Assembly: GCA_947627195.1 (NCBI GenBank) | Contig: CANQVC010000014.1 | Coordinates: 1 to 34,197, forward strand | Direction: 5' to 3' | DNA length: 34,197 nucleotides | Source of the DNA: an uncultured Bacilli bacterium | GTDB taxonomy: Bacteria; Bacillota_I; Bacilli_A; ML615J-28; CAG-698 | Translations under genes and position numbers: made by a program | Notes under the pieces: generated by a model | What the model was told of the DNA's origin: nothing | The model's input: only the letters and a program-made list of their open reading frames with translations | The model's database searches: none | Shown here: piece by piece, positions 14,839 to 26,106 of the stretch | Layout of the letters: each line of letters begins with the position of its first letter | Position numbering within the stretch: the first letter of the stretch is position 1

Positions 14839-14862
14839 AAAGGGCTCTATCGGCCCTTTTCT
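14839..14862 (+). terminator. Intrinsic terminator after fakA
   Basis: AAAGGGC (14839-14845) and GCCCTTT (14853-14859) form a 7-bp stem with a seven-base loop, followed by a short, T-rich tail. It may be partial, because recG has no clear promoter of its own. Confidence 0.7.
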
Positions 14863-14888
14863 TGCATAAAAAAGAAAGAGAAGCCATT

Positions 14889-16916
14889 ATGATAGAGTTA
14901 GCAAAAGTTGAATATTTAAGTACAAAGGTAGTTTCGCAATTAAAAAAATGTGGTATTATTACAGTTGATGATTTATTATATAGTTTTCCATCACGATTTG
15001 AAGATTATACAATTATTCCTTATGATGAAATAACTGATGTAACCAAAACAGTTACAATAGCAGGAATTGTTCAAAGTAAAGCTACAGTTATGAACTTAAA
15101 AACAAATTTAAACATGATGAATTTTTATGTTGATGTCGATGATGTTAAAGTAAAAGTTACTATTTTCAATCGTTTTTTCTTAAAAAGTAAAATTTATTAT
15201 GGAACTTATGTTCGTTTAACAGGAAAATTTGATGCTAAAAAGACCAAATTCACAGCTTCAGAAATAGCTTTTGATGAATTTGAAAGTGCCATTCATCCAA
15301 TCTTCAATATTAAAGGAATAGATGATAAAAAAATCTTTGAAATTAAAGAAAGATTGTATGAAGATTTTAATGATCAACTTATTGAAGATTTACCACATGA
15401 TATATTAGATAAATATCAATTATTACCAATACGTGATGCAATTAGAGCAATAAATTTACCAGATGATATGAAAGAAACATCACAAGCTGTTTATCGCATT
15501 AAATTTGAAGAATTATTAAAATATCAAATAAAAATCAAATATTTATTTTATATGCGAAAACATTTCCCTGAAGGTGTATGTGTTGTTTATGATGAAAATA
15601 AAGTCAAAGAATTCGTTAATAAACTTCCTTTCACATTAACAAAAGATCAAGTAACAAGTATGCAAGCTATATTAGAAGATATGCGTTCACCATATAAAAT
15701 GAATCGTTTATTACAAGGTGAAGTTGGAAGTGGTAAAACTGTTGTTAGTGCCATTGCCTTATATGCCGCAACAACAGCAGGATATCAAGGTGCTATCATG
15801 GTGCCAACAGAAGTATTAGCTGGACAACATTATCAAACATTTAAAGGATTATTTCATAATACGGAATTAAAAATTGCGTTATTAACATCAAGTGTTAATC
15901 CTAAAGATCGTAAAGATATTTTACAAGGATTAGAAGATGGAACAATTGATATTGTTGTTGGAACACATAGTTTAATTCAAAAAGATGTTTCATTTCATAA
16001 ATTAGGATTAGTTGTAACTGATGAAGAACATCGCTTTGGAGTAAAACAAAGAGTATCAATGGTAGGTAAAGGTTATTTAATCGATCATTTAAAAATGAGC
16101 GCAACCCCAATTCCCAGAACTCTTGCTATTAGTATATTGGGAGAATCAGATATTTCGATAATTAAAACTTTACCTGGGAATCGTAAAGAAGTTATTACTA
16201 AATATATTGATTATGATAAACGTGAAGAAGTATTTGAACACATTCGTGAACAAGTAAAACAAGGTAGACAAGTTTATATTATTACTCCAATGATTGAAGA
16301 ATCTGATGCTATGGATTTACAAAATGCTTTATCAGTTTATGAAAGAACTAAAAAATATTATCAAGATTTTTGCGAAGTAGGATTAATTCATGGTCGTTTA
16401 AAAACTGAACAAAAAGAAGAAGTAATGAATAAGTTCTATCAAAATGAAATTCAAATTTTAGTAGCTACAAGTGTTATTGAAGTAGGTGTTAATGTTGTTA
16501 ATGCCACAACAATTGTTATTCTTGATGCTGATCGTTTTGGGATTGCTCAACTTCACCAAATGCGTGGTAGAGTTCGTCGTAGTGATTATCAAGCATATTG
16601 TTTTTTAATTAGTAAAACGACTGTGGAAAACTCTATTAAGCGTTTAAAACTTGTGGAAGAAACAAATGATGGCTTTGCTTTAGCTGAAGAAGATTTATTT
16701 GTTCGAGGAGCTGGTGATTTATTTGGCGAAAAACAAACAGGAAATGTAGCTTTTAAAATGGCTGATATTGTTGTTGATAATGATATATTAGATGTTGCTA
16801 ATAAATGTGCTAACGAAATGTTTGAAACAGAAAAAATATTTAATAATGAAGAATATAAAAATTTACTAGAAATTGCCAAAAATAATTATTTAAATAAAAA
16901 AGAAATGGTTGAATAA
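14889..16916 (+). CDS. recG: ATP-dependent DNA helicase RecG
   Basis: Remodels stalled replication forks and branch-migrates Holliday junctions. The 675-residue protein has the N-terminal wedge/OB domain (about 1-180), then two RecA-like helicase domains: Walker A GEVGSGKTV (Lys283), the DExH box as DEEHRFG (residues 378-384; DEQH is commoner), SATPIPRTLA, and the C-terminal ATSVIEVGVNV, ADRFGIAQLHQMRGRVRRS and GAGDLFG motifs. Unlike PriA in this window, all helicase motifs are intact. An in-frame TTG at 14862 lies in the terminator tail; ATG 14889 fits family N-termini better though its ribosome-binding site is weak. It continues the fakA-recG-plsX order of Bacillus; sdaAB, sdaAA and fapR are missing between. 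Confidence 0.95.
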   Translation: MIELAKVEYLSTKVVSQLKKCGIITVDDLLYSFPSRFEDYTIIPYDEITDVTKTVTIAGIVQSKATVMNLKTNLNMMNFYVDVDDVKVKVTIFNRFFLKSKIYYGTYVRLTGKFDAKKTKFTASEIAFDEFESAIHPIFNIKGIDDKKIFEIKERLYEDFNDQLIEDLPHDILDKYQLLPIRDAIRAINLPDDMKETSQAVYRIKFEELLKYQIKIKYLFYMRKHFPEGVCVVYDENKVKEFVNKLPFTLTKDQVTSMQAILEDMRSPYKMNRLLQGEVGSGKTVVSAIALYAATTAGYQGAIMVPTEVLAGQHYQTFKGLFHNTELKIALLTSSVNPKDRKDILQGLEDGTIDIVVGTHSLIQKDVSFHKLGLVVTDEEHRFGVKQRVSMVGKGYLIDHLKMSATPIPRTLAISILGESDISIIKTLPGNRKEVITKYIDYDKREEVFEHIREQVKQGRQVYIITPMIEESDAMDLQNALSVYERTKKYYQDFCEVGLIHGRLKTEQKEEVMNKFYQNEIQILVATSVIEVGVNVVNATTIVILDADRFGIAQLHQMRGRVRRSDYQAYCFLISKTTVENSIKRLKLVEETNDGFALAEEDLFVRGAGDLFGEKQTGNVAFKMADIVVDNDILDVANKCANEMFETEKIFNNEEYKNLLEIAKNNYLNKKEMVE

Positions 16917-18690: not shown

Positions 18691-19308
18691 ATGACGCAAT
18701 ATTATATGTTGTTAAAAAACAGATTAATTGATTTTGAAAAATTAATCATTGATAAATATAGTTATTTAGGATTAAACGAAATAGACGTCATTATACTAAT
18801 TAAATTACATCGTTTATTAGAAACAAATAAATCATTTTTATCCGAAGAAATTGTAAAAGGAATGACAATATCTGAAGAAGAAGTTAGAAATAGATTAGTT
18901 AATTTAATTAACCAACAATTTATTACTTTAACTCTTTCTGGTAAAAATGAAATATATAGTTTAGATGAAACATTTAAAAAATTGGCTTCTTTGTTAGAAA
19001 ATAATGATGCAACAGATATTGAATTAGAAAATGATAATGAAACTAAAAAAGTAGTAGCATTGTTAGAAAAAGAATTTCAAAGAATACTTTCGCCAATCGA
19101 TTTAGAAGCAGTTCAACAATGGATTATGATTGATCATTTCCCTTATGATAAAATTTATGAAGCAGTTCTTGAATGTTTAAAATTAAAGAAAAATAGCGTT
19201 AAATATGTTAGTATGTTATTATATAAGAAAGAAGATTCAAGAAAAGTAGATGCTCCTAAAGAAGGATTACAAAATTTATTCAATAATGTTTATGGAAAAA
19301 TCAAATAA
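18691..19308 (+). CDS. dnaD: DnaD-family replication initiation/restart protein
   Basis: DnaD proteins act with DnaB and DnaI to load the replicative helicase at oriC and at PriA-marked forks in Bacillota. The 205-residue protein fits: an N-terminal winged-helix region (about 1-95, with MTISEEEVRNRLVNLINQQFITL) and a C-terminal DnaB_2 domain (about 125-190, with LSPIDLEAVQQWI and YDKIYEAVLECL) ending in the YVSMLLYKKE segment. A good AAGGAGAA site precedes the ATG. Its 3' end overlaps nth, the same dnaD-nth pairing as Bacillus. Confidence 0.85.
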   Translation: MTQYYMLLKNRLIDFEKLIIDKYSYLGLNEIDVIILIKLHRLLETNKSFLSEEIVKGMTISEEEVRNRLVNLINQQFITLTLSGKNEIYSLDETFKKLASLLENNDATDIELENDNETKKVVALLEKEFQRILSPIDLEAVQQWIMIDHFPYDKIYEAVLECLKLKKNSVKYVSMLLYKKEDSRKVDAPKEGLQNLFNNVYGKIK

Positions 19309-21857: not shown

Positions 21858-22484
21858 ATGAAATTAGATGAAAAAGGACTATTAGTCGTTATTTCTGGAC
21901 CTTCTGGGGTAGGAAAAGGTACTGTTAGAAATGCCTTGTTTCAAAGAGAAGGACATAATTTAGTATATTCAATTTCTATGACAACGAGAAAACCAAGACC
22001 TGGTGAAGTAAATGGTCGTGAATATTATTTTGTCAGTCAAGAAGAGTTTGAAAATAGAATTAAAAATAATCAATTTTTAGAATATGCCCAATTTGTTGGA
22101 AATTATTATGGAACTCCTTTAGATATGGTTGAACAAAAATTAAATGAAGGAAATGAAGTAGTATTAGAAATTGAAGTACAAGGAGCAATGCAAGTTCGTA
22201 AAAAAATGGATAATGCTGTATTTATTTTTATTGCTCCCCCTACTATGAAAGATTTACTTCATCGCTTACAAAACAGAGGTAGTGAATCTAATGAAGTCAT
22301 TCAAATGAGATATGAAAAAGCTTGTCGGGAAATTGAATTAGCTTATATGTATGATTATATTGTTGTAAATGATACTGTTGATAATGCCGCTGATAAAATT
22401 ATGGCAATTATTCGTGCCGAACATGCTAAAACAATTCGCACAATGTCAGGATATAAAAAATTATTAGAGGAGGGTAAGAAATGA
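21858..22484 (+). CDS. gmk: Guanylate kinase
   Basis: Phosphorylates GMP to GDP with ATP. The 208-residue protein has the P-loop GPSGVGKGT (residues 14-22), the GMP-binding TTRKPRPGEVNGREYYFVS segment, LEIEVQGAMQV and the lid region LLHRLQNRGSE. GAGG lies eight bases before the ATG, and the transcript leader is very short. Its TGA overlaps the ATG of rpoZ. The gmk-rpoZ pair links GTP synthesis with the RNA polymerase omega subunit, a common arrangement in Bacteria. Confidence 0.97.
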   Translation: MKLDEKGLLVVISGPSGVGKGTVRNALFQREGHNLVYSISMTTRKPRPGEVNGREYYFVSQEEFENRIKNNQFLEYAQFVGNYYGTPLDMVEQKLNEGNEVVLEIEVQGAMQVRKKMDNAVFIFIAPPTMKDLLHRLQNRGSESNEVIQMRYEKACREIELAYMYDYIVVNDTVDNAADKIMAIIRAEHAKTIRTMSGYKKLLEEGKK

Positions 22485-22705
22485 ATCACGAAAAAGATGG
22501 TATGAGATATCCATCAATTGATCAATTAGTTACAAAAACAACATCAAAATATCGTTTAGTTATTGGTACAGCTATTCGTGCAAAACAACTTGAATATACT
22601 GATGAAGAACCTCTTGTAACAAATCCCCATAGTAAAAAAGCTATTGGAATTGCTTTAGAAGAGATTTATGAAGATAAAATAAAAATTAAAGATCCCGAAG
22701 AATAA
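22481..22705 (+). CDS. rpoZ: DNA-directed RNA polymerase omega subunit
   Basis: A 74-residue protein that supports folding and assembly of the RNA polymerase beta' subunit. The characteristic MRYPSIDQLVTKTTSKYRLVIGTAIRA segment (split here as MRYPSIDQLV and SKYRLVIGTAIRA) and the later KKAIGIALEEI are visible; length is typical. GAGGAGGG in the end of gmk is its ribosome-binding site and the genes share an ATGA overlap. A terminator begins in its stop codon region. Confidence 0.95.
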   Translation: MNHEKDGMRYPSIDQLVTKTTSKYRLVIGTAIRAKQLEYTDEEPLVTNPHSKKAIGIALEEIYEDKIKIKDPEE

Positions 22706-22805: not shown

Positions 22806-22826
22806 GAATTTACAAGGAGGAAAGAA

Positions 22827-25163
22827 ATGTTTGCGAAAGTTGTCATAGATTTAAAAACAGATCAACTAAATGAAAGTTATGATTATCAAATACCTTTTGA
22901 GTTAGAAAACTTTATTGGTATTGGTAGTAGAGTAAGTGTACCATTTGGTTTACAAAATTTAATGGGATATGTTATTGACATTATGAATGATAGTCCTCAT
23001 AAAGATCATATTAAATCTATTAAAGATGTTTTAGATTATGAACAAGAACTAACAAAAGAACAAATTGAGTTAGCACAATATTTATGTTCAACTTATGCTG
23101 TTTCCATGTCAAGTGTTTTAGATAAAATGATTCCTTCTTTTTTAAAAGGTCAACAAAGAAAATACATTGTTGTGAAAAACTATAATGATTTACATCCATC
23201 ATTAGCTTTATTATTTATGGGAAAAGAAAGAATCATGATTGATGATAAAATCAAAAAAGAATATAATTTAATTCGTAAAGAAATAGAAAAAGATAATATT
23301 AGTTTAGATTATGATTATTATACATATGGTAAAAATAAAAAACAAAAAGTTTATTATTTGCCATCATTTGCTTATCCAATTGCAAGAAGTAATAAAAGAA
23401 AAAAAATTATTGATTATATTAAAGAATGTAATGATAAAAATAATGAGTATGTTTTAGAAGAAGATATAATTACTCAAAATGATTGTACAATTGCTTTATT
23501 ACATTCAATGGTTAAAGATAAAGAATTACTAGTAAAAGAAGAAACGATAATAAAAAAAGATGTTTTAGAACAAAAACAAATAATTAGTAATTATCAATTT
23601 TCTTTTGATCAATCCCAAACAATATTAAAATATGATCAATCAAAAACAATTCCTTATTTATTGTTTAGTAATGATGAAAAATTTAATTTAAATTTTTACT
23701 TACATATAATTGAAGAAAATACTAAACAAAATAAAATTACAATGATTTGTGCTCCAACAGTTATGTTACAAGAAGAAATGTATTATACATTAAAAAAAGT
23801 AACTAAAGGATATCAAATATTTGGTTTGAATGCGAAAAAAAGTCAAAAAGAATTTTATGATTGCTTTATGGGAATTCGTTATCAAACATGTGATGTATTT
23901 GTAACAACAATGGCAGGTATTTTATTGCCATTTAAAGAAAATAGTATTGGTACTATTATTGTTTTAGAAGAAGATAATGCTAATTATATCAATGAAAACT
24001 ATCCATATTTTCATTTACATGAGATTGTGAAATACAGGGCAAATTATCATAATGCGCGATTAATTTTTGCTACATCAACTCCTTCCATTGAAACATATCA
24101 AAAAGTAGAAGAGGGCAAATATAATTTATATCGTAGTGATCATTTCATTGTTAATCCTGTTTATGTTGTTTCTTTAAAAGAAGAATTAGAAATAAATAAA
24201 TCAAGGATGTTATCTCATACATTAATATCATCAATGCAAGCAGCATTTGATCATCATAATCAAGTAATGTTATATCTAAACAATAAAGGATATGCTTCCA
24301 TTTTACAATGTAAAGAATGTGGCAAAGTATTAAAATGTCCTACATGTCAAATCCCTTTAACATTACATAAGGAAAAGAAAGTGGCTAAATGTCCATATTG
24401 TGATTATAAACTATATCAATATGATACATGTAGTTGTGGATCTCATTCAATGATGTTTTTTAAAGCTGGATTAGAACAATTAAAAGAAGAATTAACAGAA
24501 TATTTTCCTGATAAAAAGATATTACAAGTAGATGCTGATCAAATGAAAAGTAGTCAAGATTATGAAGATGCCATTGCTTCTATTGATGAAGGAACTGTTG
24601 ATATTATTATTGGTACTAATATATTAACAAAACATTTTTCATCAAACATAATTGATAATGCAAATGATGTTAAAAATATTGAAGTGATTGGTTTACTTTC
24701 AATTGATGATATTTTAAATAGTTGTGATTATCGAGCTAGAGAATATGTTTATAATACGATTGCGAAAAATCTTAATAAATCAAAAGTAATAATTCAAACA
24801 TATTATCCTAATCAATCAACAATTCAAAAAGCAATTTTAGGAAAATATGATGAATATTATAATGAAGAAATTAAAATTAGAAAAAATTTATTATATCCAC
24901 CATTTTGTGAAATGAATCGTATTATGATTACTGGTGATTATAAAGAAATGTATCATTTTGCTAATTATTATAAAAAAGTATTTTCAAGAACTGTCGATGG
25001 AAGTGCTTTAGGGCCTGTATATGATGTTAAAAGTAAAGGAGTTAAACTTATTTTAAAACATAATGATTTTTCTAAAGTTATAAAAATATTAGATGATACT
25101 AAAAGTGTATTTAAAGACATAAACATTCTTGTTTCATTTGAAAGAATACCGAAAGTGATGTGA
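22827..25163 (+). CDS. priA: PriA-family primosomal protein with degenerate helicase motifs
   Basis: PriA recognises abandoned replication forks and starts primosome assembly. The 778-residue protein keeps the N-terminal DNA-binding domain (FAKVVIDLKTDQLNESYDY, VSVPFG), the central order of blocks, the LNNKGYA segment and cysteines of the zinc region (CKEC, CPTC, CPYC, then CSC), and the C-terminal YPPFCEMNRIMI. The helicase core is ruined: Walker A GVTGSGKT aligns with SNDEKFNL (residues 281-288, Lys replaced by Asn287), DEEH with LEED (380-383), SATPS with TSTPS, and QVAGRAGR with an unrelated TIAKNLNKS. The reading frame is intact, so this is not simple decay. It probably acts as a structural fork-recognition protein without ATPase. 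Bacillus has coaBC before and def after priA; both are missing. Confidence 0.9.
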   Translation: MFAKVVIDLKTDQLNESYDYQIPFELENFIGIGSRVSVPFGLQNLMGYVIDIMNDSPHKDHIKSIKDVLDYEQELTKEQIELAQYLCSTYAVSMSSVLDKMIPSFLKGQQRKYIVVKNYNDLHPSLALLFMGKERIMIDDKIKKEYNLIRKEIEKDNISLDYDYYTYGKNKKQKVYYLPSFAYPIARSNKRKKIIDYIKECNDKNNEYVLEEDIITQNDCTIALLHSMVKDKELLVKEETIIKKDVLEQKQIISNYQFSFDQSQTILKYDQSKTIPYLLFSNDEKFNLNFYLHIIEENTKQNKITMICAPTVMLQEEMYYTLKKVTKGYQIFGLNAKKSQKEFYDCFMGIRYQTCDVFVTTMAGILLPFKENSIGTIIVLEEDNANYINENYPYFHLHEIVKYRANYHNARLIFATSTPSIETYQKVEEGKYNLYRSDHFIVNPVYVVSLKEELEINKSRMLSHTLISSMQAAFDHHNQVMLYLNNKGYASILQCKECGKVLKCPTCQIPLTLHKEKKVAKCPYCDYKLYQYDTCSCGSHSMMFFKAGLEQLKEELTEYFPDKKILQVDADQMKSSQDYEDAIASIDEGTVDIIIGTNILTKHFSSNIIDNANDVKNIEVIGLLSIDDILNSCDYRAREYVYNTIAKNLNKSKVIIQTYYPNQSTIQKAILGKYDEYYNEEIKIRKNLLYPPFCEMNRIMITGDYKEMYHFANYYKKVFSRTVDGSALGPVYDVKSKGVKLILKHNDFSKVIKILDDTKSVFKDINILVSFERIPKVM

Positions 25164-25167
25164 TAAT

Positions 25168-26106
25168 ATGAATAAATTAAAAGTTATATTTATGGGTACA
25201 CCTGACTTTGCTGTTAGTATATTAAATGCTTTAGTAAAAGTATATGATGTTGTTTTAGTGGTAACTCAACCCGATAAAATTGTTGGAAGAAATCATAAAA
25301 TTGAATTTTCTCCTGTTAAGAAAAGAGCATTAGAATTAGGAATTGAAATATTTCAACCACAAAATATTCGTCATGATAATGATAAAATATTTTCTAAAGA
25401 AGTTGATATTATTGTAACAGCAGCATATGGACAAATTGTTGGTACTAAAGTATTATATTATCCTAAATATCATTCTATTAATGTTCATGGCTCACTTTTA
25501 CCTAAATATCGTGGGGGCTCACCTATTCAAAGAGCAATTATGAATGGTGATACAGAAACAGGTATTACAATTATGTATATGGAAAAAGGAATGGATAGTG
25601 GAGATATATTAGAACAAGAAAAAATAATTATTGAAAATAATGATACATCAACAACTTTATTTAATAAACTTGCATCGTTAGGGGCAACAATGATTACTAA
25701 AACAATTGAAAAAATAGTAAATAATGAAATAACTCCGATAAAACAAAATGAAAATGAAGTTACATATGCCCCAATTATTCAAAAAGAAGAAGAAAAAATT
25801 GATTTTGATACTTCAGCATTTTCTATTAATTGTATGATTAGAGCTCTTGCTAATAATCCAGGTGCATATTTCTTAATTGATGGTGTTCATTATAAAGTAT
25901 ATAGTAGTATTATTGAAGAAAAAAATTATAATGAAGTAGGTAAAATAGTTAATGTAAATAAAAATAGTTTTACTGTATCATGTAAAAAAGGTTGTATTAC
26001 ATTTACTGATATTAAACCTGAAGGCAAAAATTTAATGAAAGTAAGCGACTTTTTAAATGGTAAAGGTAAATCAATATTATTAATTGATAAATATTTAAAT
26101 AATTAA
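25168..26106 (+). CDS. fmt: Methionyl-tRNA formyltransferase
   Basis: Formylates initiator Met-tRNA using 10-formyltetrahydrofolate. The 312-residue protein has the N-terminal catalytic domain beginning VIFMGTPDFAV, the active-site Asn105 and His107 in NVHGSLLPKYRGG, and Asp143 in MEKGMDSGDIL, with a C-terminal OB-like tRNA-binding domain from about 205. It starts four bases after priA. The ribosome-binding site is weak (GTGAT), suggesting coupling to priA. Its folate cofactor ties in with the folT transporter elsewhere in the window. Confidence 0.96.
   Translation: MNKLKVIFMGTPDFAVSILNALVKVYDVVLVVTQPDKIVGRNHKIEFSPVKKRALELGIEIFQPQNIRHDNDKIFSKEVDIIVTAAYGQIVGTKVLYYPKYHSINVHGSLLPKYRGGSPIQRAIMNGDTETGITIMYMEKGMDSGDILEQEKIIIENNDTSTTLFNKLASLGATMITKTIEKIVNNEITPIKQNENEVTYAPIIQKEEEKIDFDTSAFSINCMIRALANNPGAYFLIDGVHYKVYSSIIEEKNYNEVGKIVNVNKNSFTVSCKKGCITFTDIKPEGKNLMKVSDFLNGKGKSILLIDKYLNN

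Follow-up and report, generated by a model that had tools for sequence, protein, structure and literature searches.

A full-length PriA without its helicase motor motifs, maintained across an order of uncultured bacteria from gut and rumen

The only PriA of an uncultured Bacilli bacterium is a full-length protein in which helicase motifs I, II, III and VI are lost and motif V is partly kept. Loss of the PriA motor motifs is order-wide, the order to which the genome belongs consisting of uncultured gut and rumen bacteria that have this replication-restart protein in a single copy. The gene lies in a stretch of 34,197 nucleotides, hereafter the window, whose relevant features are collected in Table 1. 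From its sequence, the protein most likely serves as an ATP-independent fork-recognition scaffold, presumably inactive as a motor, that would pass forks to DnaD, DnaB and DnaI for helicase loading.

Table 1. Features of the window discussed in the text (aa, residues of PriA).
Feature	Position	Strand	Basis
recG, motifs intact (GEVGSGKT, DEEH, SATP, QMRGR), internal control	14862..16916	+	profile match and printed sequence
dnaD, presumed restart partner	18691..19308	+	DnaD_N 4e-13, DnaB_2 5e-9
gmk, upstream neighbour	21858..22484	+	named by sequence
rpoZ (74 aa), upstream neighbour	22481..22705	+	named by sequence
priA ribosome-binding site AAGGAGG	22814..22820	+	printed sequence
priA coding sequence, 778 aa, motor-less PriA	22827..25163	+	ORF, Pfam, NCBIfam
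3'-DNA-binding domain (3'BD), aa 4-103	22836..23135	+	Pfam, alignment
Former motif I (Walker A), now SNDEKFN without the glycines and lysine, aa 281-287	23667..23687	+	alignment
Former motif II (Walker B) LEED, aa 380-383; canonical DEEH	23964..23975	+	alignment
Former motif III TSTPS, aa 416-420; canonical SATPS	24072..24086	+	alignment
Zinc region CxxC-CxxC-CxxC-CxC, aa 495-537, between the helicase lobes	24309..24437	+	Pfam, alignment
Motif V remnant GTNILTKH, aa 596-603; canonical GTQMIAKG	24612..24635	+	alignment
Motif VI site KNLNKS, aa 647-652; QVAGRAGR replaced, partly deleted	24765..24782	+	alignment
C-terminal domain (CTD), aa 661-778	24807..25160	+	alignment
fmt, downstream neighbour	25168..26106	+	ORF list

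The window gene is the priA of the cell

The priA frame starts with ATG, is open across 778 codons and has a good ribosome site upstream. Its product matched the full Pfam PriA_3primeBD profile (PF17764; E 9e-21) and, above the cut-off, Zn_ribbon_PriA (PF18319; 2e-6), and scored 277 bits against the NCBIfam model TIGR00595 (curated cut-off 230.35). ORF, Pfam and TIGR00595 evidence thus agree with a sequence-only reading of the window, which had recognised a full-length PriA homologue with an intact frame. The gene order gmk-rpoZ-priA-fmt is the usual priA setting, and the priA-fmt linkage recurs in the sister family and in Acholeplasma laidlawii. The G+C content of priA and fmt (positions 22827-26106) is 0.24-0.25, lower than the 0.28-0.32 of most other window genes measured.

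A second intact priA, with the window copy under relaxed selection, had been named beforehand as a finding that would speak against a maintained PriA of this kind; a TIGR00595 profile search found none in the source genome (1.84 Mb, 98% complete). The other matches of the model there were ORFs of the size and place of RecG (in the window), of Mfd size (1149 aa) and of UvrB size (666 aa). Because the PriA models and the gene setting match and the genome holds no other PriA, the window gene is the genuine priA orthologue rather than a paralogue, and the cell has no PriA besides it.

The helicase motifs are lost

An active PriA helicase of the SF2 type is recognised by Walker A GxTGSGKT, Walker B DEEH and motif VI QVxGRxGR, which supplies the arginine fingers; the window protein has none of the three. 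In an alignment of the protein and its canonical counterparts from the same class, the P-loop block PYLLFSNDEKFN pairs without a gap with P-x-L-L-x-G-x-T-G-S-G-K, which places S281, E284, F286 and N287 at the positions of Gly, Gly, Gly and Lys. The disappearance of the Walker A glycines and the replacement of the lysine by Asn287, first noted by eye, are thus confirmed, and the alignment agrees with the changes noted earlier in motifs II, III, V and VI (Table 1). At motif VI, the deletion leaves the second Gly-Arg without a counterpart. A sequencing artefact of the contig was excluded because recG, a paralogous motor 6 kb upstream of priA in the same window, retains all its motifs.

The AlphaFold model of the protein was weak (pLDDT 70, pTM 0.51, N-terminus below 40). 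Its geometry was therefore left aside, and the model served for fold identity only; its best fold matches were PriA crystal structures.

DNA-binding and C-terminal parts are kept

The N-terminus, the zinc-region cysteines and the C-terminus had been described as persisting, and all three hold invariant residues: (i) in the 3'BD, Y20, G33, V36, V38, F40, K63 and P103 are invariant among 32 relatives; (ii) all eight zinc cysteines are invariant in the order (32 sequences, both families), the last pair, C535-S-C537, having the shortened CxC spacing already remarked on in the window and common to several relatives; and (iii) R685, P692, P730 and K744 of the CTD, along with D627 and Q657 ahead of it, are invariant in both the window's own family (f1) and the sister family (f2). 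In an alignment read by eye, D19, G41 and K63 align with Asp17, Gly37 and Lys61 of Escherichia coli PriA, and functional roles have been attributed to Gly37 and Lys61 of that protein. Asp17 is reported to be crucial in 3'-end recognition (PMC4129139). The PDB alignment of the window PriA stops just before Arg697, a residue of the SSB-tail pocket.

Mean pairwise identity among canonical PriAs is 0.49 and 0.57 in the two helicase lobes, 0.39 in the 3'BD and 0.32 in the CTD. The corresponding values are 0.35, 0.39, 0.46 and 0.43 for f1 PriAs, and 0.36, 0.36, 0.49 and 0.44 for those of f2. The ranking of domain conservation is reversed compared with canonical PriA: the catalytic core has shed its special constraint, and the DNA-binding and C-terminal parts have not.

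A proposed scaffold for DnaD, DnaB and DnaI

A restart primosome set of the Bacillus subtilis type (DnaD, DnaB and DnaI) is present. In addition to dnaD in the window, DnaB (424 aa) and DnaI (274 aa) adjoin on another contig of the source genome, and the DnaI P-loop is intact (GSFGTGKT). Of 27 genomes surveyed in the order, 22 gave a DnaI_N match with the Pfam model; this model missed the DnaI of the source genome, which a lineage alignment recovered. One SSB of the source genome has a DDDLPF tail.

Since motifs I, II, III and VI are lost, ATP binding and hydrolysis of the usual kind would no longer be possible for the SF2 motor of the window protein. We propose that PriA very probably continues to recognise abandoned forks and D-loops via the 3'BD, the remnant core and the CTD, and would form a static platform on which DnaD, then DnaB, then DnaI dock; the docked loaders would put the replicative helicase onto the template of the lagging strand. 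A motor-less PriA would itself be unable to clear the nascent lagging strand, so that either the lagging template of an arriving fork would need to be single-stranded already, or a further enzyme, for example RecG, would have to open the fork. The scaffold role suggested in the sequence-only reading, with restart passing to DnaD and the helicase loader, agrees with these data, because dnaD lies in the window, dnaB-dnaI lie elsewhere in the genome and ATPase-dead E. coli PriA loads helicase: the K230A protein loads DnaB in vitro, and PriA-PriB restart in vivo does not require the PriA ATPase (PMC10175261). The PriA of B. subtilis brings in DnaD and DnaB, and these two load the replicative helicase jointly with DnaI; whether the PriA motor matters there is stated to be unclear (PMC10804225).

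PriA could instead have left replication restart for another function at forks or junctions, such as protection or recombination control. Conservation alone cannot reveal function, and RadA/Sms was found above its family cut-off in 0 of 27 genomes of the order, which would point to altered fork processing in the lineage; the matches in that search were short and partial, either to ORFs of about 774-794 aa, which we take to be Lon-sized, or to other ATPase-like ORFs. Nevertheless, we consider a move away from restart decidedly unlikely, since DnaD, DnaB and DnaI are present and the restart elements of PriA (zinc region, 3'BD and CTD) are conserved.

Motor loss extends through the order

Among the genomes of the order that are at least 90% complete, 26 of 27 gave a PriA match; in f1, 25 of 28 genomes did so, mostly with full-length open frames. 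The order search found no PriA match in one relative, G014 (93% complete). All these relatives are MAGs. The PriAs of f2 stand at 27-30% identity. The losses first seen in the window recur in every one of the 33 full-length PriAs of the two families: the Gly pair and the Thr of the P-loop, the Asp of Walker B and the second Arg of motif VI are retained in none. By contrast, all 61 canonical PriAs from other families retain the Lys, Thr and last Gly of the P-loop and the Asp and Glu of Walker B, and in motif VI the Gln together with the two Arg residues; the pattern is thus not due to chance.

One canonical sequence (L030, G001:C34) was found beside a motor-less one and was rejected as an intact second priA of the order. 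It clusters with family f11 and not within the order, and the contamination listed for G001 is 6%; L030 is therefore probably a foreign contig or contaminant.

The P-loop site of f1 proteins carries a recurrent replacement, (S/T)-N-D-E-x-F-(K), with F286 nearly invariant, which suggests a structural or contact role at the old P-loop. Twelve of the 23 f1 proteins do have a lysine at the K position (for example, TNDEEFK), never together with the glycines, and its occurrence in about half of these relatives is a coincidence. The constraint on this spot, together with the Gly-Thr of motif V, which is kept in f1 and mostly lost in f2, could be taken as a sign of a remodelled, non-canonical nucleotide site with cryptic ATPase or helicase activity. 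We regard such activity as highly improbable, because all 33 proteins are devoid of the P-loop glycines, of the Asp in Walker B and of the second Arg in motif VI, the replacement segment does not extend to f2, and the other motor losses described below differ in detail.

Selection maintains the motor-less protein

Pairwise dN/dS values of priA (Nei-Gojobori method), read with the caution that dS was near saturation in most pairs, were 0.065 (L023/L025), 0.087 (L041/L043), 0.16 (L020/L024), 0.29 (window/L006) and 0.17 in one further usable pair; a single distant pair gave 0.43, and pairs with saturated dS gave no defined value. The neighbouring fmt had similar values in matched pairs. With dN/dS of about 0.06-0.3 in the most usable pairs, priA is under purifying selection and a pseudogene is excluded in practice, as the earlier claim that selection keeps a PriA without helicase motifs had anticipated.

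A copy that decays under relaxed selection and is heading for the absence of PriA seen in mycoplasmas would account for the free drift of core residues; G014 gave no PriA match, and the mycoplasma-like small-genome families f5, f16 and f23 have no PriA above the cut-off. Such decay is nonetheless very improbable, as nearly all genomes of the two divergent families have intact frames free of stops, dN/dS is low, and the eight cysteines and the CTD residues are invariant.

Motor loss occurred repeatedly

We surveyed TIGR00595 scores across one class only, with no typical Bacillus genomes covered. Low scores came from the present order (f1 and f2), from one f19 genome and, within family f10, from genus g53 and part of genus g130; motif loss was confirmed by reading the sequences in all these groups. 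Genus g53 was taken as Acholeplasma, and genome G117 as A. laidlawii PG-8.

The remnants were as follows. In g53 (L084-L087, L089-L091 and L112), 7 of 7 PriAs are without motifs I, II, III and VI and without four of the eight zinc cysteines; they retain motif V as GTQM/GTKM-ALK. In the phytoplasma-like genus g130, the P-loop glycines and motif VI are lost in L076, L078, L079, L082 and L083, and canonical motifs are kept in L142 (G199), so that the loss took place within one genus. In f19, a 684-aa PriA beside rsmB (L156:4107-6161, G161) has every motor motif gone; the family is otherwise canonical, the motor-less form being found in this genome alone.

In a tree built without the motif columns, and to be read with its long branches in mind, the order formed one clade, and g53 and the g130 subset fell inside f10 among canonical members. 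A single clade of the order and g53 was rejected (p-AU 0.0016), as was one with g130 added (2e-5). Together, the sequences indicate at least three further motor losses: in Acholeplasma, in part of the phytoplasma-like genus and in one f19 genome. The proposal of an independent loss in this lineage is upheld, since the tree and the AU test set the order apart from the other losses. A single ancestral loss, common to the order, Acholeplasma and the phytoplasma-like genomes or passed on by gene transfer, is extremely improbable even though all cases belong to one radiation, given the nesting among canonical members, the rejected clades and the differing remnants (Acholeplasma retains GTQM-K and is without four zinc cysteines). 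As f5, f16 and f23 are without a PriA over the cut-off, motor loss and full PriA loss both occur in the radiation.

Comparison with known PriA proteins

With canonical PriA, the type of B. subtilis and E. coli described by TIGR00595, the window PriA shares domain order, 3'BD, eight-cysteine zinc region, CTD, gene neighbourhood and its DnaD, DnaB and DnaI partners; it differs in being without motifs I, II, III and VI and in that the core is no longer the most conserved part.

The best-documented published precedent, absent from the sequence-only reading, is the pseudohelicase PriA of Deinococcus-Thermus, which is likewise the sole PriA and has degenerate motor motifs. D. radiodurans PriA shows neither ATPase nor helicase activity and binds single-stranded DNA, forks and DnaB (PMC4504706). 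In that group, the Walker lysine is conservatively replaced by Arg, and motifs I and II match poorly (PMC4504706). In the window protein, by contrast, motif I is unrecognisable and motif VI deleted, the lineage is distant, and the partners are DnaD, DnaB and DnaI; fork binding was measured in Deinococcus, whereas for the window PriA it is suggested by residue conservation in the 3'BD and CTD.

Actinobacterial PriA (PRK14873 models), invoked earlier as a PriA known to lack helicase motifs, is also divergent; the cited source describes it only as a smaller, highly divergent protein (PMC1193525). Unlike that type, the window PriA is full length and scores 375 bits against PRK05580 compared with 145 bits against PRK14873.

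The Acholeplasma-type PriA (g53, including A. laidlawii PG-8) is likewise single-copy, beside fmt and without motifs I, II, III and VI; unlike the window protein, it lies on a separate branch, keeps GTQMALK of motif V and has lost four of the eight zinc cysteines. Our literature search found no paper on PriA motor loss in this lineage or in Acholeplasma. PriA pseudohelicases are already known as a kind, and the present case is a more complete and repeated loss.

Implications

The combination of a B. subtilis loader set with a motor-less PriA, together with separate losses in relatives, is a natural experiment on the need for the motor, a need that evolution has tested several times. The culturable A. 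laidlawii is among the losses and offers ready proteins for assay. A motor-less PriA is also, plausibly, the step that links a complete PriA to the total loss of the protein in mycoplasma-like genomes. We suggest tentatively, as a generalisation that may well prove too broad, that the motor is dispensable as a rule in the Acholeplasma, phytoplasma-like and mycoplasma-like radiation, where it would have been discarded at least four times, and that fork restart in the order, which seemingly has no RadA/Sms, relies on a platform of DnaD, DnaB, DnaI and a PriA without motor. If so, removal of the nascent lagging strand would be skipped in these bacteria or carried out by a different enzyme.
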